A stretch of DNA of 64,000 nt from contig OY747702.1 of the NCBI GenBank assembly GCA_963556495.2, positions 940,001 to 1,004,000 of the forward strand, in the 5' to 3' direction. The position numbers and the translations under genes were made by a program. This stretch comes from Valencia hispanica (taxonomy: Eukaryota > Chordata > Actinopteri > Cyprinodontiformes > Valenciidae). This document shows, one piece after another, positions 20,070 through 63,119 of this stretch (positions within the stretch are counted from its first letter, which is position 1; each line of letters begins with the position of its first letter). Below the pieces are notes generated by a model, which was not told the DNA's origin, searched no databases, and was given only the letters and a program-made list of their open reading frames with translations.

Positions 20070-20672
20070 TTGGGAAGGGATGCATTATGTCAATTAAATG
20101 CGAAAATTTGGTGTTCACCACAAGGAATTTCTATTGACAGCTCAGGTGTAGACTTCCAAATGCATGCCAACACCGAGCAGGCCAAAGTTTATTGGCTTGG
20201 TGACATCTGTAAGTCAATAACAGAAGTTTTTGAAAAGTGGGAAAAATGTATTAAAGCACAAATTCCAAATTCAGCCAAACCATTTAGCGTTCCTCATTGC
20301 ACAATGCTCTTTGATCCATCATGCTGCAAAAACTTTGAAGAGGAATGGGACAAGGCAACAAAACACTCAGAGATTGAACTTATAACAGACTACATAGTGA
20401 TAGGAAAACAAGGTGCAGCTATAAATGTGAAGACAAACCCATTCATTGAGAAATGGTACAATGTACCAGAATCTGCACCACACATAACTCTGTTGGTTAA
20501 TGAAGGCTTTGAATCCAAATCTTTGGGGCCAATGATGTTAACAGCAAACCAGGCTCCATGGCAAAAAACAGATATTCCTCTAATCTTTACGACGCAAGAT
20601 TCAGCTATGATCAGAATTCTTTGCAAAACTTCTACACTTGCTAAACCACAAGTATGTGTGTGTCGATCCTAA
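20070..20672 (+). pseudogene. ERV-A protease C-terminus plus 2H-phosphoesterase-like domain
   Basis: Residues 2-9 ('GRDALCQL') are the end of a retroviral protease, where LLGRD-type text is usual. The rest (about residues 60-180) is not protease or RT. It contains 'PHCTM' (His 76, Thr 78) and 'PHITL' (His 138, Thr 140), two His-x-Thr motifs 62 residues apart, preceded by 'YIVIGKQGAAINV'. ERV-B has the same arrangement at the same place. Paired HxT/S motifs mark 2H phosphoesterases, which cleave 2',3'-cyclic or 2',5'-linked phosphodiesters. The function is inferred from motif and spacing only. RT follows in a different frame, overlapping at 20,654-20,672. Confidence 0.6.
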
Positions 20673-21669: not shown

Positions 21670-21673
21670 TGCA

Positions 21674-24205: not shown

Positions 24206-24253
24206 CAAGATGAATCTTTATAGACTATATGAATAACTAATAATTGTCCCCAG

Positions 24254-26106
24254 CAGGGGTGGACTGGGACAAAAATTCAGCCCTGGCATTTTTTGTCCAG
24301 ACCAGCCCACTACATTATCAGCCGACACTACATAAAAGTCCACAAATCTCGCATCATCTCCTCTTACGCATACTACAGTACAAATGAGTCATATTTCTTT
24401 AACAAATAAAGCACATGTGGCTTGACACATTAGTTCATGTTAAGGCAAGACACTACAGGCAAAAACATAGATTTTTCGTGACCTGGTCAATTTTGAGTTT
24501 TGTGGATATTTAACATCCTTAACATGTTGGCTTTCAGAATAAAACAAACTACCACTCTGAAAAACCTCTAAAATCTACTATTTTTTATCATTTTAGTGCG
24601 GGTGCGACAGCAGATTTGGCATTCTATTTTCTGTCTCACTGTTTCCGGTTACCTTTTAACACGAAGCAGTCTAAACAAAAAGCCCCCCAAAAAGAAAAAG
24701 TAAAAAAAATAAAATAAATAAAGTCCAAAAATGGTATGCCTGTTTCAATTAATGACCAAACACAAACACGAAACGAGGGATTCAAGGGTAATTTGCAATT
24801 CACATTGCATTGAATTATCTAATGCAAATCTTTAATTGCGTTTTCCTCAAAATTAGTTTTTTCCAACATTCAAAACGCATAATCTTGAAATCAGTTATAC
24901 CTATAGTATATACACCAAACTTTCCACCATTGTTCTATGCTATGAGCTGAAAAAAAAATTGCAGAGCGATTTGTCAAATACATCGTTCTAAAAAATATAA
25001 ATGTGCTATTTTTTGTAAAAAAAAAACTGGGTTAAAATGAGTTTTTTGGAGCTACTGACACTGTTTTTTGATTTATGAAGTAATGAAATGAAACAAACCT
25101 GTTTCCCTCTATAAAAAGTTTTTGATAACATATATGATTAGAAAATTAAAGAAAAATTCAATCGGTCTCTCACCAATTTTGAGATGATACGTTTACAAAT
25201 ATATGCAATTTAGCACAATTTTAACCAGATTACACCTCATTTGCATATCTAAACAAAATTTATATCAAAACTTCTAATACAAAAATTGTTTGTTTTAATA
25301 CTAGGATTAAGTTTCTCAAGTTTCACGAAGGCATCTTGAAGCTAACTCTTTTCCCTATTCACCTGTAGCGTCTCCCCTTAATGTTTACTGTTGCTATGGC
25401 TTAGCCAAATCATCAAGTATACAGTACAATTTGGCATATTTAACAAAATCAACCACAACTACTAACAGTCAGCCCTTCAACTCTGGGCTAATATGTTGTC
25501 ACAAGTATTCAGTTATTCAGGTCACATTGCGGTCAATGTAATACCGTTTTATACTTTATTTTGGGCATGTCTCAAAATGTAGCCGAGCCAACCCCATGCT
25601 AACGTTACTTACCATGGATGTCTCTTCACCTGCTCGTCTCCTGGCGCAGCAGCACCTGCTGCTGTTGGGTTGGTGAGCCCAGCACCAAATATGTCTGTTA
25701 ACCTTAAACATTTAGCAGCTTCTGCCTCCAGAGATTTCAGCTTTTTCAGCCGTACTTTTTCAGCACCACCGTTGCTTTTCTTACCCTTCTCCATTTTCAG
25801 CTCAGCAGCATCCGATCCGGCCCATTTCATGAGGTCCCGCCCACCTTGGTTTGTGTTGTGACTGACAGCACTGTCATGGCTCTCATAGGCTGTCAGCCCA
25901 TGATTGATTGACGATGACATAGACCAATAATATGTGTCGATGCTGGCAACAAACTGCTAGCCCTCTGTAGCCAATTGGCCGGCCCAATTGGAGGGAATTT
26001 AGAGAGAGGGAAAAAAACAACAACAAAAAAAAGGCCGACCGGCCCACTTTGGGTCAATGGCCCACCGGGATGATGCCCGGTATGCCAGATGGCCAGTCCA
26101 CCCCTG
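24254..26106. mobile_element. hAT-like DNA transposon with 8-bp flanks
   Basis: The ends are inverted repeats beginning 'caggggtggactgg' (24,254) and its complement ending at 26,106. The flanks are GTCCCCAG and ATCCCCAG, an 8-bp duplication with one mismatch, as expected for hAT. The interior is mostly AT-rich noncoding sequence with a short minus-strand frame near the right end. It is nonautonomous. Confidence 0.82.
25609..25920 (-). CDS. Short frame inside the hAT-like element, possible transposase N-terminus
   Basis: 103 residues with a lysine-rich middle ('KMEKGKKSNGGAEKVRLKKL') followed by 'EAEAAKCLRLTDIF'. Starts like this are known from hAT-type proteins of the zinc-finger MYM-like group, where a basic N-terminus precedes the zinc finger; this is from memory. 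No BED finger or catalytic domain follows. The frame reads outward-in from the right terminal repeat, where a transposase first exon would be. It may be a leftover first exon of the parent transposon. Confidence 0.35.
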   Translation of the reverse strand: MSSSINHGLTAYESHDSAVSHNTNQGGRDLMKWAGSDAAELKMEKGKKSNGGAEKVRLKKLKSLEAEAAKCLRLTDIFGAGLTNPTAAGAAAPGDEQVKRHPW

Positions 26107-26114
26107 ATCCCCAG

Positions 26115-27832
26115 CCTTTAAACCACATTTAAGTTTATGGTTATTGTCCCCAGCAGCTTTAAAAACAAACTGACGCCGTTGTGAGAGTATCTCAGGTCCA
26201 GTAAACGGTCCGCACTGACAGCTTCTGAAGTTTAAAAAAATATCCCAGGGGTATGGTAAGGGTCGGATAAGTTTAATCTTTTTATCTTATAATATTTAAT
26301 TTTCCCTCCGATGGAGTAAAATCACAGCCAGCGACGTTCATTTTGGTGAGGTTCATGCCTGCCAACATGGCGCCTTCGCTCTGAGAGTCACGTGACGTCC
26401 GGAGCTCTATATGAGCTCAGTTGAGCATTTGCAGAAGTTTTGTGGAACAAAAGCAAAGGCAAGATATGCTTCATCATATTTCTTGGCTTGAAAGAAGTTG
26501 ATTTGGAAGCTTATTTGGTGACGTTTTATCTTCTGATTTGAGTTTATGTGGGAGCCTCTTCATGTCAGTTATATTAGCTTTTAAATTGTATCCATTCACC
26601 CCCCCCCTCCCCCTCCCTGCAATGGAAGTGTGTAACCAGTTAACACAAAAACACATTCTGTAACACATTTTATTTTTTACAAATTTTATTCAGTCAATAT
26701 TGTTTTGTGTAGTGATCATTTTAAATAGCCACTGCCAATAAACATGTTACATATGTGTTTCTTGCCATGTAAAAACAGTGCAACAATGGCAGCTGCCTGC
26801 TATCATTTGTTTAATTTTCAGATAAACAACTACTTTCTTTGACGCTTTATTATTTGTAATGCCTTGTGATATGGTGGAGTACTGGTAGCCAGTCACACTG
26901 CAAGGTGAGACTCCAGCTTTACACAGAGGAAAGCAGAGAGTGTGTTAGGGTGGGTGGAATGAAAGAGTGACGAATCCAGTTCTAAAATATTCACTAAAAA
27001 TATATGCTTTGTCCAAAACTTATCAAAATATTCTCAGATGACCAAATGTACACCTGGAACAAGCTTGACTTTTAACAAGTTAGTTGACTAAACGTGTTAG
27101 AGAGAAAATAAAAATCTATTTCCTCACAATGTAATGCCCCATAGGAGAGTTCATCCAAAACTAAAACAATCCTATAAAACTACCAGGTCGCCCTAACATT
27201 CTTTAATAGTGTGTTTCCCTATATGCAGGGTTTTGACATGCTGTTATACTAAAAAAATAATTGAATAAAAATGTTTTAATACATTATGGTCATCAGTCTC
27301 AAAGTTTAATAGCTGCAACACACACAAAAAGACCCAGTTCTTTATTCAAAGCATAACTACTTATATGATGAAGCGGTGTGGTGAAAAAAGTTTGGAAAGT
27401 CAAATGTTTGTGTTAGCTACACATACTTTGTTGAAACACAATCCTCTGAAAAAAGGATGGACTTCAATATAGAGCAAAACCTGGAGCGGATGAATTGTTC
27501 AAAATCATGTAGGGAATTTATGCCTACATGTGAGCTCATTAGGATAAACATGCGATTTGCTATGATTTTTTGAAAGCTATGAGGTCAAATTGAGCCTTTA
27601 TCAAACTTTTATGAATAAGTTTCACCCACTTCCGTCAACCATAACCATATTACAGATGCAATGTAATGGCTATGTCCTGGATGTATATACAAAGTTTTGT
27701 TAAACTTCAATCAGCTATTTTTGCAAAACAATCTTCTGAAGTTTAAAGCGCCATCTAGTAAGACTTTAGCAGACTTTGATAAAGCTTGGTAAATACCCTA
27801 AATATCATACTTTTAGTTTGTGGTAAAAACGA
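26115..27832. other. Interval without a recognised gene
   Basis: Mostly AT-rich. The only notable patch is the promoter-like stretch at 26,360-26,415 described separately. A C-rich run lies at 26,599-26,612. No exon was recognised after the promoter-like patch. Confidence 0.4.
26360..26415 (+). promoter_or_regulatory. Promoter-like cluster (YY1-, E-box- and CRE-type words)
   Basis: Within 55 bases lie 'gccaacatggcgcc' (YY1-type AACATGGCG), 'gtcacgtgac' (palindromic E-box, USF/MITF type) overlapping 'tgacgtcc' (CRE-like), and 'ctatatgagc'. In vertebrates such words cluster at housekeeping promoters. No downstream exon was recognised, so this could be a relic or the promoter of a noncoding RNA. 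Confidence 0.35.
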
Positions 27833-27847
27833 AATGTTGAATTTTTT

Positions 27848-28029
27848 GGTGACTAGTGGCCTTTCTTCACCAGGGGATAGCATTCAGAAGGGGAGAGAGG
27901 AGTGGGGAAAGACCTGCAACAAGGATCTATGAGGATAGGAATTGGAATGGAACTCGGGACAGCCGTGACGATTACTGAGGGCTCCATACATGGGGTGCCC
28001 GCACTAACCACTACGCCACGCAATGCCCC
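27848..28029 (-). mobile_element. tRNA-derived SINE with target duplication
   Basis: Read on the minus strand, the head 'ggggcattgcgtggcgtagt' contains an A-box-like TGGCGTAGTGG. About 55 bases on, 'gagttccattcc' is a B-box-like word. The 3' part reads 'ctggtgaagaaaggccacta'. The 15-bp direct repeats 'aatgttgaatttttt' flank it at 27,833-27,847 and 28,030-28,044. The tRNA-like part cannot fold as a normal tRNA, so it is a SINE, not a tRNA gene. Confidence 0.85.
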
Positions 28030-28088
28030 AATGTTGAATTTTTTTATGATTTCAGAATTGTGGTCAAAACAATAAGGGTTACATTACT

Positions 28089-28690
28089 TTTTTTTTTTTT
28101 ACATGTGTTCTGTCTGCCAGTGTGGCGCTCAGAATTGGTGTCTGAGTACCAAGTAGAACCCTGACAGATTTACTACCACAAGTGGAGCATTACAGCTTTT
28201 GCTATAGTACTCCGCTTGATATATATGTGTAAGAAATCTTTGACAAATTGCTGTGGGATATTTTTTTCCCCAATGTGGCAGGGACATGGAGACGGAAAAT
28301 AAAAGGAGAGAAAGAAAGTAGATGAAGAGAGGTAGGAAAAAAGGTTAAGAGTCAGAGGGTAAGCTGAAGATACGAGAGGAAGGGGAACAAAGAAAATACA
28401 AGATTTAGTAGAGGGTGATGGAGTGGGTGGACAGAGGTGTCCGGAGATGGGGAGGGAAGGACTGGGGGACAAAATGCCCTCCCAGGGAGCCAGCTCCCCC
28501 ACTGACTCCAATGGGCACCGCCGATCACCAAGATCCACCAAGGGAGGGAGGCCCTGGCATGTCCACCCCGGGGCCCATGCCTGCAGCACCACCAAACCCC
28601 ACAGAGCCCAAGGCAGTCCCCCCGGCCCCATCCCAGAAAAGAGATCTATACCCACCCAAAAATCTGGTCTACTATTAAAGTACAAAATAC
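28089..28690 (-). mobile_element. L1-like LINE 3' end with poly(A)
   Basis: On the minus strand the unit ends in a run of A (t-run 28,089-28,100 on plus). It shares about 280 bases with 6,545-6,838 in inverse orientation. The upstream part (28,430-28,660) is GC-rich 3' UTR-like sequence; open frames there on both strands (up to 170 residues) have no protein signature. Assignment to L1-type is by the poly(A) end and by L1 fragments elsewhere in the window. Confidence 0.6.
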
Positions 28691-30191
28691 ATTAGACACC
28701 AAGGTTGAATTCTTAAGATAATTATAACTCTATTTGAACATGTATTTAACCTGTTCCACCCAACAGCCCCCGCCGCCCACGTCACTGTGGGGGAAGGGCG
28801 GAGAGAATGTCCGAATTTAGTTGACCTTTGGTCACTGATTGCTAAGCATGTCCTATTATTATAAACCTCAGAATATTAGCTAAAGACTCATATAAATCTT
28901 TTTTCTGACCTCCAAACCCAGAAAAAATAACAAGCACTTAAAAGAACAGTTGTGCTATTTTGCGATTTTTACATGAACACATTCAACCAAACCTGTCGGT
29001 CACCCTGCCGAACAGAACCGATCAAATTTTGCCTTCCCTGAAAGTCAGCTGCTGTCAGTTGCTGAAAAGAATAATCCACCGTGATATGACTGTATTTCCA
29101 GAATAATTAAAATACCCAGTGTGTATTTAGAAAAGAAAAAGTGAAAAAAACATAATCCTTTGTCAACATATTTTACATTTGATTCAAGGAGGCTCAACCT
29201 TGTCTGTCATGCGCATTTTGAACTTTCCCCATGTAAACTTTTGCTTTGTCCAATCTGCTTCAAAGTTCTGATGTCAGCGTGATTCTATAGGATCTTACGA
29301 TTCTAACCATATGTCAGTCATCCAAATTGGCCAATAGAAAGTGAAGTTACAGGTCTGCGTAATTCTAAAAGATTTATCAGTCTTTAGCTGAGATTCTGAG
29401 GTTTATAATGATAGGACATGCTTAGCAATCAGTGACCACAGGTCAACTAAATTCACACATTCTCCCTGCCCTCCCCCCACAGTGACCCAGCGGTGGGCCT
29501 GTTAGAGGTGTGCATCTCTACCTGCCTCACGATTCGATCCGATTCCGATTATCTGCCCAACGATTTGATTTGATTCTGCAATGCATCACGATTCTTCACA
29601 CTCAATTTTTCATCACTTAATACAAGCAGTCAGATATTGTTTTGAATTCCTTTTTATTTATTTCAATATTCCTGAAAAACAAAACATAAATCTTTCCACT
29701 GTAGTGAATGACAATTTCTAAAGTGTGCTGCCTTAAATTACTTAAATAATATAAAAAAATAAGGTTTTCAGTAGAGCAGCTATAAGACAGGACTTTGCAA
29801 TCACACACTGACTGTGCAAAATAGTAAACAAATACTGTGATAAGTGATTCTTTCACATGTAGTATACCAAATCAAAACAAATAACAAATAGCATAGACCT
29901 AGCCTACCTATTTAAGAGTGCAAATATTCAAATCTCAAAATAAAACAATTCCTTGTTCTACATTCAAAGTGCACTGGATAAAATAGTTGAGCAGCTTGAA
30001 GACAAGGAAACTTGAGAACCTGAGAATCATGTGTGGAAATCACATCATACAGCTGCAACATAGATTTAAACATAAATCTTAATAAACAAAGTTGTAAACC
30101 CAAAGTAAATTGCATAGGCCTAGTCTACACCTACAATCAGTTTCAGAGGAAATGTACCTTTTGACCTAACCGTACAATAACTGCTCACTTT

Positions 30192-30690
30192 TCAGCATTT
30201 TGGAATTTCAAGGTTCTTGTGCAAGAACACTAGGTGATCGACATGTTCTGGTTTGAGAGTGCTTCTTTTTGCAGTGACAACATCTCCTGCAGTGGAGAAA
30301 ACTCTCTCTGCAGACACACTTGTCGCTGGGATACATAAATACCTCTTTGACAGCCTGGACAGGAGAGGAAAGGTAAACTCATGACCATGCCACCAGTTCA
30401 AGGGATCTTCTGTGAGAGGTAGAGATGGAGATTTGCAGTAGTTGTCCACTTCATCCTCAGCCCTGGCATGGGTGGTTTTGTTTTGCATTGCAGCCACATT
30501 GTCAGTGAATGTATGTCCAAGCAAACTCACAAGCAGTGATGATGAGGCCCTCCTTTTGGCAGCAGGTGGGCAGGAGGCAACATTGTCCTTCCTGTGCATG
30601 TTGTCCTCCACACACAGTATCTCTTCTTCCTGGATTCCTGAACTCCTTGTTCCAGCAGGCATTTCATCTGCTTCTGTTTCCTCGTTTTCC
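30192..30690 (-). pseudogene. hAT transposase C-terminal dimerisation domain
   Basis: The last segment has the hATC signature: 'DPLNWWHGHEFTFPLLSRLS', 'YLCIPATSVSAERVFSTAGD' and 'KPEHVDHLVFLHKNL'. It ends naturally at 30,192. It is separated from the catalytic part by about 400 noncoding bases. The minus-strand text 'cactaacag' before it suits a splice acceptor, and a second possible AG about ten bases on keeps the reading phase better. This domain holds the dimer and one catalytic Glu in the family. Confidence 0.88.
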
Positions 30691-30702
30691 CTGTTAGTGA
30701 CA

Positions 30703-30746
30703 AGCAAAAAACAGCACTTAGCACTGCTAAGTGCTGTTTTTTTGCT
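30703..30746. repeat. Perfect 16-bp hairpin in the intron
   Basis: 'aaaaaacagcacttag' (30,706-30,721) pairs exactly with 30,727-30,742 around a five-base loop, and the pairing extends with AGC/GCT. Confidence 0.95.
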
Positions 30747-30778
30747 AAGTTAGCAGTTCTTAAAACATTTAGGCTTGT

Positions 30779-30893
30779 CCCCAGCTCCACTACTTCCTAA
30801 ACTTAAACCAACTCCATGGATTAATCAGTTTGTCCAATAATGTAGTAAAACAGGAAAGGTGCTTGTTTAAGTTCAGGAAGTAGTGGAGCTGGG
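30779..30893. repeat. Inverted repeat of about 30 bp, possible mini-MITE
   Basis: The arm at 30,779-30,809 ('ccccagctccactacttcct' start) is the complement of 30,865-30,893 with one mismatch. The 55 bases between are unrelated. The size is compatible with a very short MITE or with a foldback formed inside the intron. Confidence 0.85.
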
Positions 30894-31088
30894 CATAATG
30901 CCCATGCAAGATTTCTCATAGACAAATACAATAAAACATCGTTACAACATAACAATTTTTCTGTCTTATAAAACTTTCACTTAACATTACAATTAAGACA
31001 ATTTAATATTTGTTTCACTTTAAAAATTTTACATGGCAAGTTTATTTTTATATAAATCAAATCAAAATATATGGTGAAATTAAATTAC

Positions 31089-32066
31089 CTCCAATGCTGC
31101 AGCCTCCGTCACGACACCTCTGTAGATCTCATATCTCTCATCTGCTGTGAGGAAAGGCAGTCCCTTAAAACGAGGATCCAGGGCAGATGATGTATAAAGC
31201 AACTTCTTCTCTTTCTCAGAGTTGTATCTCTTTAGGAGATCTGTTTTGATTACATTCTTGATCTCACGGATCACTGATGGGTCACCAGTGGTGTCTGACA
31301 TGTTCTGAAGGAGCTGTGTATACAGTGGTGCAATCAAACAAACTGTTGGATTGCTCTCCTCAGACATCAACGTAGTGGCATCTTTCATTGGTCTTAATGG
31401 CTTCACTGCATGTGCTGTGTTCTCCAGTTCTGTTTTGTTGAGAGTGTAATGTTCAGCATCATCTTTTGCGACCTGAGGACTCAGCAGGGAAGCATGGATT
31501 GCAGATTGCTGTTCCAAGTACCTCTCCATCATGTCATGTGCACTATTCCACCTTGTTGCCACATCAGTTTTCAGTTTATGGTTTGGCAGGCCTATAACTT
31601 TCTGGTTTACTTGCAACTGGTGGTTTGCAATAGTGCTGCGATGAAAAAATGTTGACACACGTCGGATTCTGCCCACAAGTCTGGAAACCGTCTGCAGTTT
31701 AAGTGCCCGCTGTGCAGCAAGATTCAGTGTATGCGCGAAGCATTTTACATGAGGGAACTTCCCAACTTCAGCTGCACGTATCATGTTAGACGCGTTATCT
31801 GTCACCAGCACGACATCTTTGTCTGTTAGATGCCATTCATCCACAGCTTCAGACAGTAACTCCGCCAGATTAGCACCCGTGTGACTCTCATAAACAGCTC
31901 TTGTCTGCAGCACATGTGATAAAATCTGCCAGTCGTTGCTTATATAATGTGCTGTTATTGTTATGTAGGACTCTGTTGCAGTTGAAGTCCACGAATCACA
32001 TGTAATGGCTACACGGATAGCTTTACTCATTGATTCCATTACCTGTGCTTTGGTTTCATCGTACAA
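31089..32066 (-). pseudogene. hAT transposase catalytic region
   Basis: This frame has 'AITCDSWTSTATESYITITA' (first catalytic Asp region), 'VLVTDNASNMIRA' (second Asp), 'HTLNLAAQRAL' and 'DVATRWNSAHDMMERYLEQQ'. All are diagnostic of Ac-type hAT proteins related to ZBED1. It ends at a probable splice donor: coding text up to 31,089 is followed by GTAATT on the minus strand. The only break from the BED exon is one frameshift near 32,113, so the copy lost activity recently or was otherwise close to functional. Confidence 0.9.
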
Positions 32067-32523
32067 TGCAGGAACAGCAGTTTCTGTGAAGTGTCTTCTC
32101 GTCAGGGTTATACCGTGGCTCGAGTGTCTTCAGGAGGTAGCGAAATCCGGCATTTTCGACCACAGAATAGGGCCGTAGATCCTTAGCAATGAAGCATGCA
32201 ACAGAACGGGTGATCTTTTTCCCTCTCTCCGAAGCAGACGGCAAAGTTGTCAGCGCTTGTTCTATTGTTGGCTGGGATGTGCTCGCTGTTTTCGTGGCTG
32301 TTGCTGCCGAAGTCCTCACAGGGTGGAAACGTTCGAAATGTTTCGTCATATTGGTTGTATTCCCAAAGTACTTTATTTTCGTGTGGCACACTTTACACAC
32401 AGCATGCGTCTTCTCAAGCTTCCCATCAAGCTCATAAAAGCCAAAATTAGCCCAGACGTCTGATTTAAATGTAATGGGTGCATCTTTGATTACCCGTGTG
32501 GTTCGCGCTTCCCAGTCCGCCAT
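32056..32523 (-). pseudogene. hAT transposase N-terminus with BED zinc finger
   Basis: 155 residues starting 'MADWEART'. The BED finger is at about residues 20-68: 'SDVWANFGFYE', 'CKVCHTKIKYFGNTTNMTKH' and 'FERFHP', giving the C-x2-C and H-x4-H ligands. It binds transposon ends in hAT enzymes. After 'FRYLLKTLEPRY' (near 32,113) a single-base shift moves the reading out of frame. The catalytic part continues at 32,066 and below. The ATG lies about 220 bases inside the terminal repeat, as expected for a first coding exon. Confidence 0.88.
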
Positions 32524-32938
32524 TTCTGTTGTGGTATTGAATCTAGCAACGCAGTGCGCATGTCATTGCAACTCTGCCCCCGGAAGTAGTTGAAAAACTT
32601 GAAAAACTTAATTGTCCAAGCGCGGCCAGAAAATTTATATTAACAAAGAGGGGGGGGAGCGATTGTCACGTTGCTGCATCGATGCAGAATCGTGCACGGC
32701 CGAATCGTGATGCATCTTAGAATCGATCATTTTTCCCACCTCTAGGGCCTGTGGGGTGGAACAGGTTAACACAATAGATTAACCTCGACAATCCCATCTA
32801 TTTTAATGCGTACAATCTACAACTACTGACGATCTTAGAAAAATTTATAAATGGAACCAAATCAACAAATAACACTGACAGAATTAGAGAGGACAGTCAC
32901 CAGGGTATCACTTCAAAGATGCCATTATCACCTCTGGA

Positions 32939-32998
32939 TGTGTGTGTGTGTGTGTGTGTATGTGTGTGTCGGTGTGTGCGTGCGTGTGTGTGTGTGTG
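32939..32998 (+). repeat. (TG)n microsatellite
   Basis: An imperfect TG/GTGC repeat of about 60 bases. Confidence 0.95.
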
Positions 32999-32999
32999 G

Positions 33000-33970
33000 A
33001 GGGGACTATTGTAAAGTATTTGCCCTTATTGGTCCAGTGCTCCACTCTTTGAAGCAATGAAAACACAGGCTGGAAAGCATGGGCTTCAATGGCCAGACTC
33101 ACCCCACAGTGGAAATGATGCGGAAACAAAAGGACAATTAGCACTAGTTTTAGCAGACGATGGACATCACACGACCTGGTCTAGAGTGGGCAGCCAGCCC
33201 AGACAGGTGGTGTTACGGTTACAATCAGCTGACGTTAACAGAATAAAAGGAAAAGAAAGAAAGAAGAGATATAGCAACGTTTCTAGCGACAACCAGTTTA
33301 CAACACAGAGCACACAACACTCTAGGCCAGCGTGCGGCGACGCTAATTGCCGATGAGTAAAAAGTGGTTTACGAGTTCACAAACTTATTTCAACGAACAG
33401 AAAGACTGGATCTAATCCGTCGAACCCGGAATGAAAGTGTTCAAATGGTGGATGAAGCAGCCGTGCACAGCGGATGTCAGAGATGGACGCGTCCAAATGC
33501 AGGCAATGGCCGGAATCGGGCCTGTCTTCAGAGAGCTATCTCGGTATAGCTCAGATCCCAGCAGACTCCCTAGATACACAAACGGGAAGCCGGTTTGCTT
33601 GGCAAGTAATACTTCAAAGTTTTCAAGGAAGTTCTTTCCTGATCCAGCAGGTCGGCACAAAAGAGGGAAAGTTGCTAGCAATTCAACTGTGCGTCTCCAT
33701 TCAGCTCAGCGATGAGCAGAGGAAAGACAATGATTTCACGTTGCGTGCCCCTTTATCAAATCTGTGATGTCATCACTGGCCACAGACTAATGAGAATGAT
33801 TTGATGGCTCAAAGTATGCTGGAAGATGCAGTCCATTCAGTTTGTGGAAAATGAATCCTAACACTACATTCAGTCATTTACCCATTAACTCACAAATTCA
33901 CATGCTGATGGTGGCAAACTACTACATTGTAGCCACAGATGCCCTGGGGCACACTGGCAGAGCCAAGACT
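33000..33970. other. Interval without a recognised gene
   Basis: Several open frames of 60-97 residues overlap on both strands, but none shows a protein family signature or a coding bias I can see. No terminal repeats were found. Confidence 0.4.
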
Positions 33971-33974
33971 GATT

Positions 33975-34140
33975 TTCTGTACTATGTTGTTGAATCTTTA
34001 ATATTGTTAGTCTACCTGATTACTGCTACTAGTGGTTCAATAAAAATAGCAAACAGGGAGGAAGAGTGGACATCCCTGCCTGGGTTATTGCTTCTATGTG
34101 GCACATCTTCAATCAACAGCTGATGGATGAAATGTCCATT
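33975..34140 (-). mobile_element. L1-like LINE RT fragment
   Basis: On the minus strand the text 'SSLFAIFIEPL' (within 34,012-34,060) matches the RT block that in L1/Tx1 elements follows the RQGCPLS motif. The preceding residues are damaged versions of that motif. It is a short decayed internal piece, with no ends visible. Confidence 0.55.
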
Positions 34141-53942: not shown

Positions 53943-54330
53943 TGTTAGGGAAAATAATAATGGTGTATTATTATTTTCTTAGGGTGTTTTTATCACATAG
54001 TTCTAATGTACTTTTTAAATGTCATTTTGGTTTCAGTCACATGCTCTTGTGCATGACATCCTGTTCTTTTAATATGTTAATGAAGTGTGACTAAATAAAG
54101 AGAGCCTGCAGAGGGGAGACCCTTTGAGACCAGTGATGAGATCAGTGAGGGAGACGAGTGACGAGGAGCTGATAACAGACAGACGGTTGGCTCATTCCTT
54201 ATAGTATTTTCCTGGTCTCCCTCTGCAGAACTGATTATCCACATCTACCTCTGCAGAGCTTATTGACTCCATATTATCTCCGACTTTTGTGTGTGACTCG
54301 TTTTAGGTAAACCACAATATTTACCTAACA
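53943..54330 (+). repeat. ERV-B 5' LTR
   Basis: 388 bp. It differs from the 3' LTR only by C at 'gacatcctg' versus T. The ends are the inverted repeat TGTTAGG/CCTAACA. AATAAA lies at 54,094-54,099. Confidence 0.97.
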
Positions 54331-54333
54331 TCT

Positions 54334-54351
54334 TGGTGCCGAGACTCGACG
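54334..54351 (+). promoter_or_regulatory. ERV-B primer-binding site, tRNA-His type
   Basis: 'tggtgccgagactcgacg' begins three bases after the LTR. From memory, the complement of the tRNA-His 3' end reads TGGTGCCGTGACTCGGA, so about 14 of the first 15 bases agree. tRNA-His is the primer I recall for fish epsilonretroviruses. Confidence 0.65.
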
Positions 54352-54660
54352 TACGGAGCACTCCCGCCGGTGGTTTCCGTCGAAGGGCTGTTTTTGACAT
54401 CCAGATCGCTGAATTGCTGCACTGGCCGGCTGCATAACTTCCACGAGGACCCCCTGCGCGTGCTCCCGTGCGATCGATTCGGTTTGAATCACTCGCATTG
54501 GGGCGGAGATTGTGAGTACGTCTTTTTTGTGCACCTTTACATTTAACAAAACAAATTCTAAGATAGTCAGGGTATATTCTGCTGTTTGGGCCTAAAGAAC
54601 GCTTTAGCCTCTCTGATAAAATATCAGGTGTTGATCCGTAACTGTTTAGTGACAAAAGAA

Positions 54661-54909
54661 GGGTGTAACGGACCTGGTTTGCGAACCGGTCCACCTTGAA
54701 AAAGGGGTGTAACGGGACAGGTCTGCGAACCTGACCACCTTCAAAAATAAAATTTGAACAAAAAAAAAAAAAAAAGGGTGTAACGGACCTCGTTTGCGAA
54801 CCGGTCCACCTTGAAAAAAGGGTGTAACGGTACAGGTCTGCGAACCTGACCACCTTGAAAAATATACGGTTGTAACGGGTTAGGTTTGCGAACCAATCCA
54901 CCTCGCTGG
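54661..54909 (+). repeat. Five tandem stem-loop repeats in the ERV-B leader
   Basis: Units start near 54,661, 54,704, 54,775, 54,819 and 54,866. Each has 'gtaacgg', an inverted repeat around TGCG, and 'ccacctt' or 'ccacctc'. Types alternate: units 1, 3 and 5 centre on 'gtttgcgaacc', units 2 and 4 on 'caggtctgcgaacctg'. In unit 1, GGACC pairs with GGTCC; in unit 5 these positions read GGGTT and AATCC, which still pair. Confidence 0.85.
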
Positions 54910-55456
54910 GAAATAAAGCACGCCAGTGTATGGAAGTAAAAACACCAACAGCAGAATCAAAACGAAATACCGCACCCTAAGTGGGTATAAGAAAGATTAG
55001 ACACAGGACATAATCTTTATGTATGCCAGTCCAACCTGAAACCTAACGGTGTTAACGTACGGTTTGAACGGGCACTACAAGAGACGTTCTGTGTGGATTT
55101 ATAGGTTACACAACACATCCTTAGATTAGGAAAGCCATAAAACGGCTCAATCTAGTTGCACAAGAGAGACACTTAGAGTAAAAACTATACGATCCACTTT
55201 TAGCAGAAATTGATTACAATTAAAAATCTCAAATAAATGACCAAACAAAAAAAAAATTACTTTAATTAATTAAAGAATAAATCACTAACTTCAACTCATC
55301 AACAGACTAATTTCATAGTTCTTGCTTTTTCATTCACCTTAACCTTAATATTAATTACTGTTGTTATTCTCATAGAACTATTTGGTATTCTAACAACAGA
55401 CTTTACCAGACCAATTTTATAGAACCCATTAAGGGTTATATAAAAACAACGCAAAG

Positions 55457-56965
55457 ATGGGAAACGATGTTTCCACCGACAAATTAGAAGGCGATTCAAA
55501 ATATATGTATAAAAAGAACCCCGAAAATCTTCAGTTTCTAACAAAATGGCGCAAAAAGTATAAAGTAGATGGGAAGCTTAAAGGAAGCCAATGGAGAGAA
55601 CTTGTATGTGTTCTTGAAGCAAAAACACTTATCGCTAAAGGTAAAAAGAAAAAACTTAAACAGACACAGTTAAAAATAGCACGTGTGTGGGCTGATGAAA
55701 CAGAGAAAAGGAAGCAAAATATAAAAAACAGAATAGAGAGCAAAGGTGCTAAAGATGAGGCTCTTCTTATGAAAAAGCTAGGTGACGAGCTCACACTGTG
55801 CCCTCCTCCTTATTCACCTCCACCTACAGCCCAGACAGACCCCCCCGGGGCTGTTGGAGGAGAACCTTATGCACCTCCACCAACACCCCCATCAGACCAG
55901 CCGGGGGCTTTAGGGGAAGGTCTATATCCTCCTGTTCTAAGAGATCAATTTGCAATTGAAGAAAAAACAAATGGTACCCCAATAAAACAAAGACTTAGAA
56001 TTACAAAGAAGTCAGGTCCAAAAAAATCTGAGGATAAATCTTATGAGAGTGAACCAGAGGACTCAATAAATATCAACCCTATGATTCAAGTACCATCTGC
56101 CGATGGTACTCCGAGATATGTTTTTAGACCATGGTCACTTAAATACGTTAAAGAGGTTGTAGAACAAATCACTAGCCATAAGGAGGATCCAGAAAAATGG
56201 ACAGAGGATATGGTTGATGTGGTCAAATCCTACCGGTTAAACGGTCATGAATTAGGAGAGGCTATGGCTGCATCGCTGGGGAAAGACTGGCACCATGTAG
56301 CTGGAAATTACACAGGAAGAGATGCTGCCGGAGTTGTGTTACAATTTCAGAATGATTTCCAGGGGGCACTAAAGCAACAATTCGATGCAGTAGCGGATAA
56401 AGTTCGTGCACAGTTTAAAAAGAAACCAGATTATGGGCATATGGCCTCCATAAAACAGAAGCCTGGGGAAACTGTAGATGATTTTAAATACAGATACCAA
56501 AAGGAACATGATACCCACAGTGGCCTAACTAAAGAGAATGGTGATGAAACTCCATATATGCGGCATTTGTGTAATGGTCTGCTACATAGTTTCCACCCCA
56601 CTATCACTAATTGGATTAAAAATCACCTTCTGACATGGGAAACTTGTGACCTTACTACCCTTATGGCCAATGCACGTTTTGCAGAAGGTGTCATGGAAAG
56701 AAAGGGGAAGAAACCAAAACCTCCAGACTCCGACACACAGGTATTTCACACTCAGGTTGAAGACGATGAGGGGGAAGTTTTTTATCAAAGTGATAACCAC
56801 AACAAAGGAAGGGGGTTTAGACCACAAAGGAATACACATCATAAGACATCACAGGGGTCATGGAGACATCAAGGTGGTCACACTGCCCCCACGTGTTGGA
56901 TCTGCGGGAAAGTAGGCCACATTTCACATCAATGTAGCAGAGGCCGAGGAGGGGGCATAGGGTGA
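55457..56965 (+). CDS. gag: ERV-B gag polyprotein
   Basis: 502 residues. It starts 'MGND', a probable myristoylation site for membrane targeting. Residues 1-110 are basic and matrix-like. PPPY at residues 116-119 is a late-budding motif within a Pro-rich stretch (to about 160). The capsid region follows, about residues 215-430 ('YVFRPWSLKYVKEVVEQIT', 'PGETVDDFKYRYQKEHDTH'). One CCHC zinc knuckle ends the protein: C480, C483, H488 and C493, in 'CWICGKVGHISHQC'. It would build the virus core and bind genomic RNA. The frame is intact from the ATG to a TGA at 56,963. The same frame continues past this stop toward protease. Confidence 0.92.
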   Translation: MGNDVSTDKLEGDSKYMYKKNPENLQFLTKWRKKYKVDGKLKGSQWRELVCVLEAKTLIAKGKKKKLKQTQLKIARVWADETEKRKQNIKNRIESKGAKDEALLMKKLGDELTLCPPPYSPPPTAQTDPPGAVGGEPYAPPPTPPSDQPGALGEGLYPPVLRDQFAIEEKTNGTPIKQRLRITKKSGPKKSEDKSYESEPEDSININPMIQVPSADGTPRYVFRPWSLKYVKEVVEQITSHKEDPEKWTEDMVDVVKSYRLNGHELGEAMAASLGKDWHHVAGNYTGRDAAGVVLQFQNDFQGALKQQFDAVADKVRAQFKKKPDYGHMASIKQKPGETVDDFKYRYQKEHDTHSGLTKENGDETPYMRHLCNGLLHSFHPTITNWIKNHLLTWETCDLTTLMANARFAEGVMERKGKKPKPPDSDTQVFHTQVEDDEGEVFYQSDNHNKGRGFRPQRNTHHKTSQGSWRHQGGHTAPTCWICGKVGHISHQCSRGRGGGIG

Positions 56966-57022: not shown

Positions 57023-57029
57023 TGACTAG
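57023..57029 (+). promoter_or_regulatory. Readthrough-type stop context TGA-CTA-G
   Basis: The gag frame, followed past the TGA at 56,963, meets a second TGA at 57,023 followed by CTAG. TGA-CTA-G is a known leaky stop context in vertebrate and viral genes. Protease continues in the same frame after it, so readthrough is the natural way to express pro here. Confidence 0.5.
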
Positions 57030-57886
57030 ATACTTTTACCGCCTCTAATGAGGTGGTGGACTGCTGTGGCGCCTGGGAATTACTTAATGTTCTGAAAGAG
57101 AAGCCTTACATAACACTTAAAGTTAATGAACAAACAGTAGAGCTCCTTTGTGATACTGGAGCTTGCAGAACAGTGATCTCTTCTGGCGTTAATCTGCCAG
57201 AATCTAAAGAAAGCATTTTGGTAAAATCAGCAGATGGTGCCACTACTCGCTCATTTTTATCTAAACCAGTGTTAATAACAGATCTAAAAACTAGGTTAAG
57301 TTCTAAAAACTTAATAGTCATTTCACCACAATGTCCACTCAATTTGTTAGGCAGAGACTTAATGTCAGCCCTAAAAATCTCAATTATCCCAGTGGGAGAC
57401 GGCATGAGAGCTGTGAGAACAGGAAATTATGACATTTACCTAAATACAATTCATAGACCACAGGGGCTCGGTCTGTACTACTCTTTACGAGTTGAACCTA
57501 AAGAAAACCTTAAAGATACAACAACAATGATGGACACAGTTTTGCAGGTAGTTCCTGAACCCGACAAACAAATCATGCCTACATCACAGTTACATGTGAC
57601 TATGGCTCTGAGGCCTGAACCTGATCCCAAGTTCCAAGACTATTTTATGCAACTCTCACCTGCTGTAGTGTTCACCTCATACATCATTACTGATGGAAAA
57701 TCTGATTCAGCTGCCTCAGTAACACTGTCTACCAGCTCTAAACCATTCTTTGATTTGCCTACAGATCCGCATATATCCCTGACAAAAAGCAGTACATCAC
57801 GTTGGAAAGATTTGGGATATATGGTGCGAAAAGCAAATAATACCACAGATTTTAAAACTTTTTTAAAACGAAAATTAAGAAGATAG
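57026..57886 (+). CDS. pro: ERV-B protease and 2H-phosphoesterase-like domain
   Basis: Positions below count from the GTG codon at 57,053. The protease active site 'LLCDTGACRTVI' has DTG at residues 34-36, and 'NLLGRDLM' at 97-104 is the usual late protease block. After residue 160 a domain follows that is neither protease nor RT. It has 'LHVTMAL' (His 181, Thr 183), then 'YIITDGKSDSAASVTLST', then 'PHISLTKS' (His 240, Ser 242). Two HxT/S motifs 59 residues apart match the 2H phosphoesterase signature, also present in ERV-A. A late 'WKDLGYMVRKA' block is shared with ERV-A. The frame ends at 57,884; RT is in another frame with almost no overlap, so an indel is likely. Confidence 0.75.
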   Translation, partial: LDTFTASNEVVDCCGAWELLNVLKEKPYITLKVNEQTVELLCDTGACRTVISSGVNLPESKESILVKSADGATTRSFLSKPVLITDLKTRLSSKNLIVISPQCPLNLLGRDLMSALKISIIPVGDGMRAVRTGNYDIYLNTIHRPQGLGLYYSLRVEPKENLKDTTTMMDTVLQVVPEPDKQIMPTSQLHVTMALRPEPDPKFQDYFMQLSPAVVFTSYIITDGKSDSAASVTLSTSSKPFFDLPTDPHISLTKSSTSRWKDLGYMVRKANNTTDFKTFLKRKLRR

Positions 57887-57974
57887 TTGGCAATACAGTG
57901 AATCCACAGGTTTATATAGACTGCCCCTTATCATGCCACTCCACTGCACCACCAAAATTGCAACATTAGAATGA

Positions 57975-59675
57975 CCAGAAGCAGAAACCATCTTATTGAC
58001 TGAAGAGGAAGAAAAACAACTCAAAGAAGTCCCTGACACATTATGGTCTAAAAGCCCCACTGATGTGGGCCTACTCTCATCCATTGTTCCCGTTCAAATA
58101 ACTGCTAAATCCCATTTTAGACCCAGAGTAAGACAATATCCCCTCTCTGTGGAAGCAGAGTTAGGAATTCAACCAGTAATTGAGGAATTACTAACAACAG
58201 GTGTCATAAGAAAATGTCCTGATTCACCATGTAACACCCCAATCTGGCCAGTTAAAAAGGCTGATGGGAAAAGCTGGCGTATGGTTCAAGATTTGAGAAT
58301 GTTGAATTCAGCTGTCCAGACCAGAGCGCCAAATGTACCGGACCCACATACTCTTTTAAACTCTTTGAGTCCCACTAGGAAGTTTTTCACAGTAGTGGAC
58401 CTCAGCAACGCCTTTTTTAGCATTCCAGTGCACCCAGATTCACAATTTTGGTTTGCTTTCACTTATAAACATGTAAAATACACATACAGCAGATTGCCAC
58501 AGGGGTTTGCAGACAGTCCTACAATTTTTACAGAAGCAATTACCAACTGCCTGGCCAGTTTTGAATGTTCTAAAAATACACAAATTCTTGTTTACGTAGA
58601 TGATGTCCTGGTTGCATCAGATGACTATGAAAGCTGCTTACATGACTCTCTCTCCTTACTGCACCACCTGCATTCCACTGGAAATAAAGTCAGTAAAAAC
58701 AAAATCAAGTGGGTAAAATCATCGGTTCAATACTTAGGACACACTTTGTCAGGAGAAGGCAGACAAGTCCAACCTGGAAGGAGAGAGGACATTTTAAACA
58801 CTCCTAAGCCCATGACAAAGAAACAAATGATGCAATTCCTGGGACTAGCTAATTATTGCAGGCAATATATATCTCATTATGCAGAAAAAACACAACCTCT
58901 TCTTGAGATGATCCATGGCCAGCAGATGGAGATGAAGGATACTTTAACTTGGTCAACTAAAACAGAACGAACTTTTACCACAATAAAACAGGACATCCAT
59001 TCTAGCACTGTTTTAGTACTACCAGATTACTCCAAAATATTCACTCAAACGGTGGACTGCAAAAATGGTTTTATGACTTCAGTTTTGCTGCATAAACATG
59101 GAGATAAACAACGTCCTGTTGCATTTTATTCTAAAAAACTAGACCAAGTTGCACAGGCCTTACCCAACTGTGTGCAAGCTATCGCTGCTGCAGCACTGGC
59201 TGTCGAAGCCTCAGCTGATGTAGTGCTATTCCACCCTCTCACGTTGTTGGTCCCCCACGCAGTAGATGTTTTACTTCTACAAGGCAGATTAGGATTATTA
59301 TCACCAGCGAGACATCTTAGTTACACTGCAATACTGATCTCACAACCTTATATTACCATACAGCGTTGCAACACTTTAAATCCAGCGACGCTTCTACCTA
59401 CTGCAGATGACGGAGAACCACATAACTGTGTACAAGCTACAGAAAGATTACAACTACCTAGGCCTGATCTTAAAGATGTCCCACTACAAACAGGACTGGA
59501 ATGGTTTGTAGATGGATCAAGCTCTAAAACTAAAACAGGCTCTACTGAAACAGGCTATTCAATTGTACAACTTCCTGATGTGATTATAGAAGCCAAATCA
59601 TTACCACAACATTTTTCCGCTCAAGCCGCAGAAATAGTAGCTTTGACAACAGCATGTCAACTTGCAGAAGGCTAG
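57975..59675 (+). CDS. pol: ERV-B reverse transcriptase and start of RNase H
   Basis: The frame opens after a TGA at 57,972. RT begins with 'VPDTLWSKSPTDVGLLSS' and has 'WRMVQDLRMLN', 'FFTVVDLSNAFFSIPV' with a catalytic Asp, 'RLPQGFADSPTIF' and YVDD at about residues 200-203 (counting from 57,996). The thumb and connection carry 'MMQFLGLANYCRQYISHYAE' and 'RPVAFYSKKLDQVAQ'. RNase H starts at 'LEWFVDGSSSKTKTGS' with its first Asp and 'AAEIVALTTACQLAEG' with the Glu. A TAG at 59,673 then stops the frame; the same frame goes on after it. All visible RT catalytic residues are intact. Confidence 0.9.
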   Translation, partial: PEAETILLTEEEEKQLKEVPDTLWSKSPTDVGLLSSIVPVQITAKSHFRPRVRQYPLSVEAELGIQPVIEELLTTGVIRKCPDSPCNTPIWPVKKADGKSWRMVQDLRMLNSAVQTRAPNVPDPHTLLNSLSPTRKFFTVVDLSNAFFSIPVHPDSQFWFAFTYKHVKYTYSRLPQGFADSPTIFTEAITNCLASFECSKNTQILVYVDDVLVASDDYESCLHDSLSLLHHLHSTGNKVSKNKIKWVKSSVQYLGHTLSGEGRQVQPGRREDILNTPKPMTKKQMMQFLGLANYCRQYISHYAEKTQPLLEMIHGQQMEMKDTLTWSTKTERTFTTIKQDIHSSTVLVLPDYSKIFTQTVDCKNGFMTSVLLHKHGDKQRPVAFYSKKLDQVAQALPNCVQAIAAAALAVEASADVVLFHPLTLLVPHAVDVLLLQGRLGLLSPARHLSYTAILISQPYITIQRCNTLNPATLLPTADDGEPHNCVQATERLQLPRPDLKDVPLQTGLEWFVDGSSSKTKTGSTETGYSIVQLPDVIIEAKSLPQHFSAQAAEIVALTTACQLAEG

Positions 59676-60464
59676 GTGGTAACCATTCACACAGATAGCC
59701 AATATGCATTTTCTACCGTGCACTGTTTTGCTAAACAATGGGAAAGGAGAGGAATGGTCACCTCTACAGGAAAACCTATAACCCACTCTCAATTACTGAT
59801 AAAAGTATTAGACGCAGTTATGTTACCAAAAGCTATTGCAATTTGTAAATGTCAAGCACACACCACAGGAAAAGACACAGTTTCCTGTGGCAACAGATTC
59901 GCAGAAGAAATAGCAAAAGCAGCTGCACAAGGCAGTTTTGGTTCCTCTAATGCTTATACACAGACCACAGAACAAGAACTTATAGATCAGACTGTTTTGA
60001 AAGACATGCAAACAATCCACATGGATTTCATTGAACTAACACAGAGCGGCTCATACAAATATTGCTTAGTAATAATTGACGCTTTCTCCAAATGGCCAGA
60101 AATAATTCCCACTGCAAAGAATGATGCTCTAACAGTGGCAAAAGCACTATGTAAAACTATCATTGCAAACCATGGTATTCCACAAGTAATATATTCAGAT
60201 AATGAACCACATTTTGTGAATGAGGTTATTCAAAATATGGCAAAACATTTAGACATCCAACTAAAAAATCATTGTGCCTATCACCCCCAAAGTGCAGGTT
60301 TAGTAGAAAGACATAATGGGACCATCAAAAGCAGACTCAGGAAATGCATGGCAGAAACTAGAAGACCATGGCCTGAGTGTTTGGACCTAGTAAAACTTTA
60401 CATGAGAATCATGCCAACAAACCAAGGTTTAACACTTTTTGAAATCATTTATGGCAGACCTTAG
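59676..60464 (+). CDS. pol: ERV-B end of RNase H and integrase core, zinc domain missing
   Basis: In frame with RT after the TAG. RNase H ends with 'IHTDSQYAFSTVHCFAKQW' (third Asp) and 'GNRFAEEIAKAAA' (last Asp replaced by Arg-Phe-Ala context). Integrase then begins abruptly: 'QTVLKDMQ' is followed at once by 'TIHMDFIELTQSG', the start of the catalytic core. The HHCC zinc domain, about 100 residues that ERV-A still partly has, is missing in frame. The core keeps its three acidic residues in 'MDFIEL', 'YSDNEPHF' (usually SDNGPxF) and 'VERHNGTIK'. A TAG at 60,462 ends the frame. Confidence 0.88.
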   Translation: MVTIHTDSQYAFSTVHCFAKQWERRGMVTSTGKPITHSQLLIKVLDAVMLPKAIAICKCQAHTTGKDTVSCGNRFAEEIAKAAAQGSFGSSNAYTQTTEQELIDQTVLKDMQTIHMDFIELTQSGSYKYCLVIIDAFSKWPEIIPTAKNDALTVAKALCKTIIANHGIPQVIYSDNEPHFVNEVIQNMAKHLDIQLKNHCAYHPQSAGLVERHNGTIKSRLRKCMAETRRPWPECLDLVKLYMRIMPTNQGLTLFEIIYGRP

Positions 60465-60791
60465 AGGTTACCTCTAGTTGCGCCTGATTTGCAAAAAGCA
60501 GACGAAGAACTCACATTAGCTGATTACATGAGGAACATTATCCTAGCCAAAGAAGTGCAAAACGCACACAATCTGCCTATCTCTCCTTCTGTTTTGCAGG
60601 ATCCTGAAAAGCCAATCAAACCTGGAGACTGGGTTTTCACAAAGGTGATTAAAAGGAAGAATTGGACGAGTCCCCGCTGGGAAGGACCTTTTGAAGTCCT
60701 GCTGACTACGCCCACGGCTGTGAAAATCGCTGAGAGACCCTCGTGGATACACATCTCACACTGCAAATTGCAAAGGCAATTAGGGGACTAG
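60465..60791 (+). CDS. pol: ERV-B integrase C-terminal domain
   Basis: Still in the pol frame after the second TAG. It has 'KPGDWVFTKVIKRKNWTSPR', 'WEGPFEVLLTTPTAVKIAE' and 'WIHISHCK', the SH3-like DNA-binding end of gammaretrovirus-type integrases. The natural stop is at 60,789. Its strong likeness to the gammaretroviral tail places ERV-B in class I. Confidence 0.9.
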   Translation, partial: RLPLVAPDLQKADEELTLADYMRNIILAKEVQNAHNLPISPSVLQDPEKPIKPGDWVFTKVIKRKNWTSPRWEGPFEVLLTTPTAVKIAERPSWIHISHCKLQRQLGD

Positions 60792-60924
60792 ACACGGGAC
60801 AGTGAGGAAGTCTGGGCTACAAAGGACAGAGTGACCAATAGGGCCTCTGATCTCAAACCCAGCAGAACAGCATCCCTGTCCCCTTAGTGGTCAAACCTCT
60901 GTTTTGGAGGGCTAGTCCTCTTAT

Positions 60925-62088
60925 TTGCCTCTAGCTAACATGAAACTAGTTTGGCTCCCCTCCTGTCTGGCAGTTTGCCTGCCTCTATTCCACTGCTTTT
61001 TCCTCACACCTGATGACGCCCAGACATCAAAGGAAAGAAGAGCTAAAATTCTAACCCACCATGCGTTCAAGAACACCTGGTACCAAATAGCTAATTTGAC
61101 TGCAAAACGTTTAGGTTTCAATACCAGCTGTTATGTCTGTTCATGGATCCCACACCATTCTGAAGAAGTCTCATCGATGACTGCTGTCCCAACCACCTTA
61201 AATAATACCAAATGTCTGCTATACAAATTAACTATAACAACTGTTGGAACAGACTGTTCCACCTTACCTCACTGCTGCACTACTGAGAACAACAGGACAT
61301 GGTCCCAGCCTGGTGACTTTTCCAAGAAAACGAATGCTTCAGTTGCCAAAGGAATCAACTTACTACGCCTTACTGGAAAAGACACTTTCTGTTTTTCAGT
61401 CCCTTGTAACAACAAACATGCATTTTTAGGAAATTCCATCTGTGAGGACACGCTACCCTTGTCAGGGACCCAGACGAAAAAGATGCGTATAAATCACTGG
61501 ATGACGATTGGAAACACATCTGTGCCAAGATACATAACCCTCAACACCACTCGACTTCAAGACAAGATAAGTGGTTTCAAAACCACTGTCAAAAGAGGAA
61601 CCCACCTCCTAGAGGTTCCCTCCCAATTTAGCATGGGAACGCCTGACGGATACATCTGGAAGTGTGGTCACACTTTCTATCTCTACCTACCTAAGGATTG
61701 GTGTGGCACATGCAGTTTGGCTCGACTGCAACCCTCCTCATACATCATAACAGAAAACGGAGCACCTTCTAAACCTACAGAGCTGAATAAACGGGAATTC
61801 AACCCTCCACAAGTGTTCAACCCGTTCTCTGACAATGGTGGACGAAAACCTCTCTACAGTGATGCAAAAGGAATCTTCCACACCATGTTCCCACCTGTTG
61901 GAGTTGCAAGTCTGACAAAACGGATGAACGAGGTTTGGTGGACTATGGAAAACATCACAGACATCCTTGCTGAAATGTCCAACCTGCTGGCCAACGATCC
62001 TGAAAAACTGGCGATGAAGACCATGCTGATGCAACATCGGGTAGCTCTGGACACTCCTTTGTTTCTGAAGGTGGACTTTGTACTGTAA
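60925..62088 (+). pseudogene. env: ERV-B envelope, surface part and start of transmembrane subunit
   Basis: 387 residues. The N-terminus has a hydrophobic signal-like stretch (about residues 7-27, 'LVWLPSCLAVCLPLFHCFF'). The surface region is rich in Asn-x-Thr/Ser glycosylation sites and cysteines, with a CxxC pair in 'DWCGTCSLAR' (about residue 255). No clear RxxR furin site precedes the transmembrane part; the nearest basic text is 'NKRE'. The transmembrane ectodomain follows with heptad-like text and 'LMQHRVALD', the place of the conserved immunosuppressive-type region in class I envelopes. A frameshift between about 62,040 and 62,075 ends this frame early. The protein would mediate entry and is broken here. 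Confidence 0.85.
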
Positions 62089-62731: not shown

Positions 62732-63119
62732 TGTTAGGGAAAATAATAATGGTGTATTATTATTTTCTTAGGGTGTTTTTATCACATAGTTCTAATGTAC
62801 TTTTTAAATGTCATTTTGGTTTCAGTCACATGCTCTTGTGCATGACATTCTGTTCTTTTAATATGTTAATGAAGTGTGACTAAATAAAGAGAGCCTGCAG
62901 AGGGGAGACCCTTTGAGACCAGTGATGAGATCAGTGAGGGAGACGAGTGACGAGGAGCTGATAACAGACAGACGGTTGGCTCATTCCTTATAGTATTTTC
63001 CTGGTCTCCCTCTGCAGAACTGATTATCCACATCTACCTCTGCAGAGCTTATTGACTCCATATTATCTCCGACTTTTGTGTGTGACTCGTTTTAGGTAAA
63101 CCACAATATTTACCTAACA
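62732..63119 (+). repeat. ERV-B 3' LTR
   Basis: 388 bp, matching the 5' LTR except for one C/T difference. AATAAA lies at 62,883-62,888. The ATGTC target duplication follows. Confidence 0.97.

Follow-up and report, generated by a model that had tools for sequence, protein, structure and literature searches.

A probable 2H phosphoesterase domain, best explained as CNPase/RICH-type, between protease and reverse transcriptase in endogenous retroviruses of a teleost

The window, a 64,000-nucleotide stretch of contig OY747702.1 from Valencia hispanica (assembly GCA_963556495.2, positions 940,001 to 1,004,000), contains two endogenous retroviruses, ERV-A and ERV-B; coordinates below are those of the window, and features lie on the plus strand unless stated otherwise. 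ERV-B is a recent insertion: its 5′ LTR (53943..54330; 388 bp, TG...CA) and its 3′ LTR (62732..63119) differ by one mismatch in 388, and ATGTC, which directly follows the 3′ LTR, is present on both outer sides as a 5-bp target-site duplication. Its gag ORF (55433..56965) has a CCHC zinc knuckle near its end (PF00098, E 0.00059, residues 487-502; 20.2 bits, slightly below the family cut-off of 20.8). The next ORF, in the gag frame, is 286 residues long (57026..57886) and joins the protease (PR; PF00077 RVP, E 1.8e-12, residues 24-120) to the module that is the subject of this work. A different frame then encodes the reverse transcriptase (RT) and the start of RNase H (57975..59675; PF00078, E 3.4e-28; PF17919; PF17917), followed after an in-frame stop by the remaining RNase H and the integrase core (59676..60464; PF00075, E 9.8e-11; PF00665, E 7.6e-18), and after another by an MLV-type C-terminal part of the integrase (60465..60791; PF18697 MLVIN_C, E 1.4e-15). 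A 390-residue ORF (60916..62088) is placed at env by its position only and matches no Pfam family at E 1. With pol split by two in-frame stops (59675 and 60464) and RT in a frame other than that of PR, this copy of ERV-B is broken despite its youth.

Further features of ERV-B lie around gag. Gag and PR share a frame, yet two stops intervene (56963-56965 and 57023-57025), and PR would therefore need read-through of both or another expression route. In the leader between the 5′ LTR and gag, a 44-base unit with an inverted repeat around TTTGCGAA/TCTGCGAA (GTGTAACGG...GAACC...CCACCTT) is repeated in tandem about five times (54653-54903); the region 54640-54880 has a folding energy of -70.3 kcal/mol (z -2.5), and the repeats may serve as a signal for packaging or dimerization. 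Directly after the 5′ LTR, TGGTGCCGAGACTCGA (54331-54360) could be the primer-binding site; its closest counterpart is presumably the tRNA-Phe 3′ end, from which it differs by mismatches.

The module lies downstream of the protease motif LLGRD (57344-57358), in the same frame. It starts with GLGLYYSLRV at about 57464, and its portion in the PR frame (57464..57883; E 2.7e-21, 72.4 bits against a profile built without the window) comprises the first strand (YYSLRV), the first lobe, both histidine motifs and a helix after the second motif. The coordinates bear out what the earlier note had reported in the protease frame: LHVTMAL (motif 1, 57590..57610) and PHISLTKS (motif 2, 57767..57790), with their histidines 59 residues apart and a hairpin-like stretch between them. 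Each motif follows the 2H pattern, a His-x-Thr/Ser with a hydrophobic residue next to it (LHVTM, PHISL). Behind them, WKDLGYMVRK (57803..57832) is the counterpart of helix alpha7 of CNPase, with a glycine 15 residues after the second histidine (His2+15). The interval first given for the module, 57530..57860, holds both motifs but is too narrow: the module begins upstream of it and probably ends past it, with the last strands in a different frame. These likely last strands are in the RT frame (57879..57971), where SESTGLYRLPLIMPLHC (SESTGLYRLPL...), from 57897 to 57971, resembles SPSTGFFKQPFAFCT (SPSTGFFKQPF) of a stickleback relative; the assignment was made by eye because the profile score of this piece is only 4.9 bits (E 1.3). 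The last 2H strands of ERV-B thus probably continue in the RT frame, with the frame change inside the domain, and the 2H domain of this copy is broken in its second lobe and probably does not work. A single polypeptide, as first described, therefore holds for PR and the module and not for RT, since the stop at 57886 closes the PR ORF, and RT occupies the other frame, open from 57975 on.

We scanned all 1561 stop-to-stop segments of the window of at least 25 residues with the same profile, made of 18 relative pieces with the window left out. There were two strong matches, the ERV-B PR ORF (E 2.7e-21) and positions 20043-20669 of ERV-A (E 5.4e-37), and the next segment scored E 0.1. The ERV-B spacer reached 74.2 bits; when its residues were shuffled 2000 times, the top score was 7.6 bits (the program scored 1515 of the 2001 sequences, the real spacer included), and a hydrophobic HxT/S pair 40-110 residues apart appeared in one of 2000 shuffles. 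ERV-A, found at 20043-21670 and 22822-23652, belongs to a lineage other than that of ERV-B. It is an older fragment with breaks, and its 2H domain (20184..20666; 123.6 bits) is better preserved than that of ERV-B, with LLGRD in its protease (20067-20081) and the motifs HCTMLF (20295-20312) and PHITLL (20478-20495). A protein of Oryzias melastigma is 59% identical to ERV-A over 201 residues of PR-2H and 67% over its first RT piece.

General databases returned little for either module. In the Pfam and PHROG profile scan the ERV-B module had no match at E 10; by sequence against the PDB it had three rows, all phage 'Gene 5 protein' and not meaningful (best E 0.23). A protein search with residues 130-286 of the PR-2H ORF gave none of 65 candidates at E 0.01, and viral contig scans with PR-2H, RT or alignment A4 gave no match. 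The ERV-A module had no Pfam match and, in the PDB, only an oxetanocin-like protein (E 0.18).

Relatives were obtained with the RT piece, which matched 163 proteins at E 1e-5 or better. Of the 120 listed proteins, those with a named source come mainly from teleosts and otherwise from a few turtles, one shark and one bichir. With the spacer of a Dicentrarchus labrax protein as query, seven proteins were found, itself included. Alignment A2 combines 21 relative pieces with the window module, and in it the pieces are only 14-38% identical to the ERV-B module; alignment A3 retains 18 of the 21 and the window, leaving out the short P0049, P0096 and P0043. Both landmarks, the protease GRD and the RT QYPL, are present in 27 of 126 proteins (the ERV-A piece included). 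Fourteen of these have the order PR-2H-RT, with 251-279 residues from GRD to QYPL and the domain present, and the other 13 have 69-97 residues and no domain. The domain scores of the 14 are partly circular because 13 of them, all but P0122, contributed to the profile, while the gap in GRD-QYPL length between the two groups is not circular.

The short group is itself mixed. Eight of its 13 members are fish proteins known only from uniref, which may be gene models with the 2H stretch spliced out, and P0069 and P0120 are turtle annotations; the contig-derived P0058, P0060 and P0088 are the best candidates for a true absence of the domain. An RT tree of 88 rows (26 with 2H, 13 short and 49 labelled unknown; the ERV-A RT piece was left out) requires at least five changes between 2H and short among the labelled rows. 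We derive no history of gain and loss from it because eight of the 13 short proteins are possibly spliced models and because the score cut-off placed P0049, a carrier of motif 2, among the unknown rows. The starts of the proteins suggest that RT is an ORF separate from PR-2H in some relatives of ERV-B: among 37 picked pol proteins, 16 start 14-26 residues before the RT D-V/I-G motif, 14 of them at 23-26. P0049 is the counter-case, one protein running from motif 2 through RT.

Conservation was measured over 33 matched rows and 176 columns, with both window modules included. The histidine and threonine of motif 1 are each present in 22 of the 22 rows that cover it and are the two least variable of the 176 columns. 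Motif 2 has its histidine in 25 and a serine or threonine in 24 (17 Ser, 7 Thr) of the 28 rows that cover it; as single letters, these columns rank 10th and 23rd. It is altered in six of the 28 rows (P0029, P0064, P0066, P0093, P0102 and P0124), where the histidine is lost in three, the Ser/Thr in four, and both in one. The glycine at His2+15 is found in 28 of 30 rows and a first-strand tyrosine in 18 of 19. As far as an alignment can tell, this pattern is one that selection on an enzyme would give. Pfam recognizes little of it: one of the 19 A3 members had a weak match to a 2H-type family (tRNA_lig_CPD, E 0.0062), and the other 2H-type families had no match among the 19.

The structure model of one relative, P0034, matches the 2H fold. 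The model of ERV-B's own module, cut short in its ORF, has a pLDDT of 50 and no fold match; because it is poor, we infer the fold of ERV-B from relatives at 14-38% identity. On this evidence the ERV-B module is very probably a 2H phosphoesterase domain, and the fold alignment over residues 21-178 of the relative's model implies that both motif histidines would lie in one cleft. The first assignment to a 2H-type domain is thereby upheld by the relative's fold match and the invariant HxT of motif 1, and the outcomes named beforehand as counting against it, an unrelated fold or unconserved motifs, are not what the relatives have: their fold is 2H, motif 1 is invariant, and motif 2 is lost in few rows.

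Among the solved 2H proteins listed, the nearest folds are CNPase and RICH, both closer than LigT; AKAP7 is absent among the 50 fold rows listed, which does not exclude families outside them. By sequence, CNPase has no significant match to the family, human CNPase being the sole PDB match of the A3 profile at E 0.28, with motif 2 at -3.6 bits. A CNPase-type region follows motif 2. In CNPase, residues 230-233 and 309-312 form the cleft motifs. The N-terminal end of helix alpha7 (319-321) is in contact with both the ligand and the nucleophilic water, the stretch Val321-Gly324 reacts to ligand binding, and the G324A substitution, at His309+15, alters both binding and catalysis (PMC3290555). In the relative's model a helix runs from His2+11, and the family's glycine at His2+15 sits at the position of G324. 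The first-strand tyrosine may be the counterpart of CNPase Tyr168, in a register uncertain to the residue. LigT, which had been named with AKAP7 as a model, gives way to CNPase and RICH, whose folds are closer and whose type of region after motif 2 is present. Our best explanation as a whole, and one we consider somewhat favoured by the evidence, is that the module belongs to the CNPase/RICH kind and is part of the pol of teleost epsilonretrovirus-like ERVs.

Compared to the catalytic domains of CNPase and goldfish RICH, the retroviral domain has the same fold, both motifs, the helix after motif 2 and the glycine at His2+15. It differs in that it is only 12-15% identical to them, is shorter (157 residues align with human CNPase, and the solved chains have 204-222), has mostly HxS rather than HxT in motif 2, and lies within a retroviral polyprotein. 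LigT of E. coli has the 2H fold in common with it. The AKAP7-like phosphodiesterases (PDEs) of nidoviruses and rotaviruses (PMC10835031) are likewise viral members of the 2H superfamily, and the listed nidovirus fold matches are weaker, with HKU5 ORF4b at E 7.5e-4 and torovirus polyproteins at E 0.16 or above. In the viral structure library BFVD, the three best matches of the relative's model are Q2VF30_1 and proteins of two fish retroviruses, WEHV1 and walleye dermal sarcoma virus (WDSV), with E between 5.5e-11 and 4.2e-7. WEHV1 Q9WHI8 matches at E 6.4e-8 and WDSV A4GTG3 at E 4.2e-7 (TM 0.66 and 0.64 by query length), a likeness of the relative's modelled fold and of superfamily. Both entries are named 'Envelope polyprotein' in BFVD yet match a pol domain, and the name looks misplaced.

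The earlier note named no retrovirus described with such a domain, but 2H domains in fish retroviruses, WDSV included, are already in print (Mazumder 2002, as cited in PMC9503650). The review's report and the WDSV and WEHV1 fold matches make the kind of domain a known one. WDSV and WEHV1 are viruses, whereas both copies in the window are endogenous: the young one has a frame change within the domain, and the other is an older fragment. New here are the two ERV copies themselves, the assignment to the CNPase type, and the domain's presence in ERV proteins of many teleosts. In the portions of the literature consulted we found no CNPase assignment of retroviral 2H domains, which Mazumder 2002 may contain, and the word stem 'retrovir' is absent from the main text of PMC11410667 and PMC10835031 even though fish retroviral 2H domains had been published. 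The comparison with dUTPase is also to be dropped. The dUTPase gene precedes PR in betaretroviruses and sits between RNase H and integrase in lentiviruses, and neither place is the PR-RT slot.

We now turn to what an intact domain might do. It would be made together with PR and would probably enter the virion with the Pol products, either released or still linked to PR or RT. In this reading, its two HxT/S motifs would each be on a strand and would together line the floor of a single cleft; as in the rest of the family, catalysis would be metal-free, with one histidine activating water and the other protonating the leaving group, and a 2′,3′-cyclic phosphate would be opened by chemistry like that of CNPase (PMC4643303). 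The shared fold alone reveals no substrate. The healing of RNA ends and the removal of 2′,3′-cyclic nucleotides would fit the modelled fold best, and the processing of cyclic RNA ends has been suggested for a subset of RNA-viral 2H domains (PMC9503650). We give about even chances to the proposal that the domain trims or heals cyclic-phosphate RNA ends, or clears cyclic nucleotides, during entry and reverse transcription.

The same fold could instead act on 2′,3′-cGAMP or a related cyclic dinucleotide, with the Pol-delivered enzyme destroying the cGAS alarm upon viral cDNA. There is viral precedent, since both phage Acb1 and the LigT-like PDEs of avian poxviruses cleave cGAMP (PMC11410667); Acb1 proteins are among the viral fold matches, and the domain is coded beside RT. 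Against this, the Acb1 matches (E 6e-4 and up, TM 0.35-0.42 by query length) are weaker than the fish retroviral ones, and the nearest fold is CNPase, whose alpha7 blocks large molecules on one side of the cleft (PMC3290555), an argument qualified by the ability of the CNPase cleft to accommodate NADP+ and possibly oligonucleotides (PMC4643303). We judge this substrate rather unlikely. It is less probable still that the domain serves PR or RT as a structural or nucleic-acid-binding extension, its catalysis lost or secondary: the alteration of motif 2 in six of 28 rows speaks for it, but motif 1 keeps its His and Thr in 22 of 22 rows, motif 2 keeps its His in 25 of 28, and three of the six altered rows (P0029, P0064 and P0102) are pieces short of motif 1.

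The function first proposed, degradation of 2′,5′-oligoadenylates to block RNase L, is unsupported and highly improbable. The nearest listed folds are CNPase and RICH, the best coronavirus match (HKU5 ORF4b, E 7.5e-4) is weaker than the three best rows, whose E-values span 5.5e-11 to 4.2e-7, and we know of no OAS-RNase L pair in teleosts, because of which 2-5A is a poor substrate candidate and least likely in these hosts. The precedent in its favour is that nidovirus and rotavirus PDEs antagonise OAS-RNase L (PMC10835031, PMC11410667). Finally, a chance HxT/S pair in an unstructured PR-RT linker, with which the poor folding of ERV-B's own module would agree, is ruled out by the profile E-values and the shuffles, is contradicted by the conservation and the relative's fold match as well, and has a negligible probability.

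Viruses have repeatedly turned 2H enzymes against nucleotide alarm signals, and teleost hosts possess cGAS-STING. Returning to a domain of CNPase/RICH kind, a bolder and rather unlikely reading is that fish retroviruses captured a host enzyme of this type, in an event separate from the capture of AKAP7-type enzymes by coronaviruses and rotaviruses, and that they deliver it with the reverse transcription machinery against a cyclic nucleotide or cyclic-phosphate RNA signal directed at incoming RNA or new cDNA. The kind of domain is already in print; the family assignment of this little-studied, conserved viral enzyme domain is now sharper. The testable question is what a Pol-linked cyclic phosphodiesterase does for a retrovirus whose host has cGAS-STING and, to our knowledge, no RNase L, and relatives with an unbroken domain, the modelled one of Dicentrarchus labrax among them, exist for testing it.

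Other retroelement sequences accompany ERV-A. Direct repeats of at least 80 bases were not found in 14000-34000, the region around it. A 745-residue ORF (15549-17786) encodes RT, RNase H, an H2C2 zinc finger and integrase, and looks to be of Ty3/gypsy type. A 324-residue ORF on the minus strand (21870-22844), with an RT match (PF00078, E 3.4e-12), lies between the ERV-A pieces, which are on the opposite strand.
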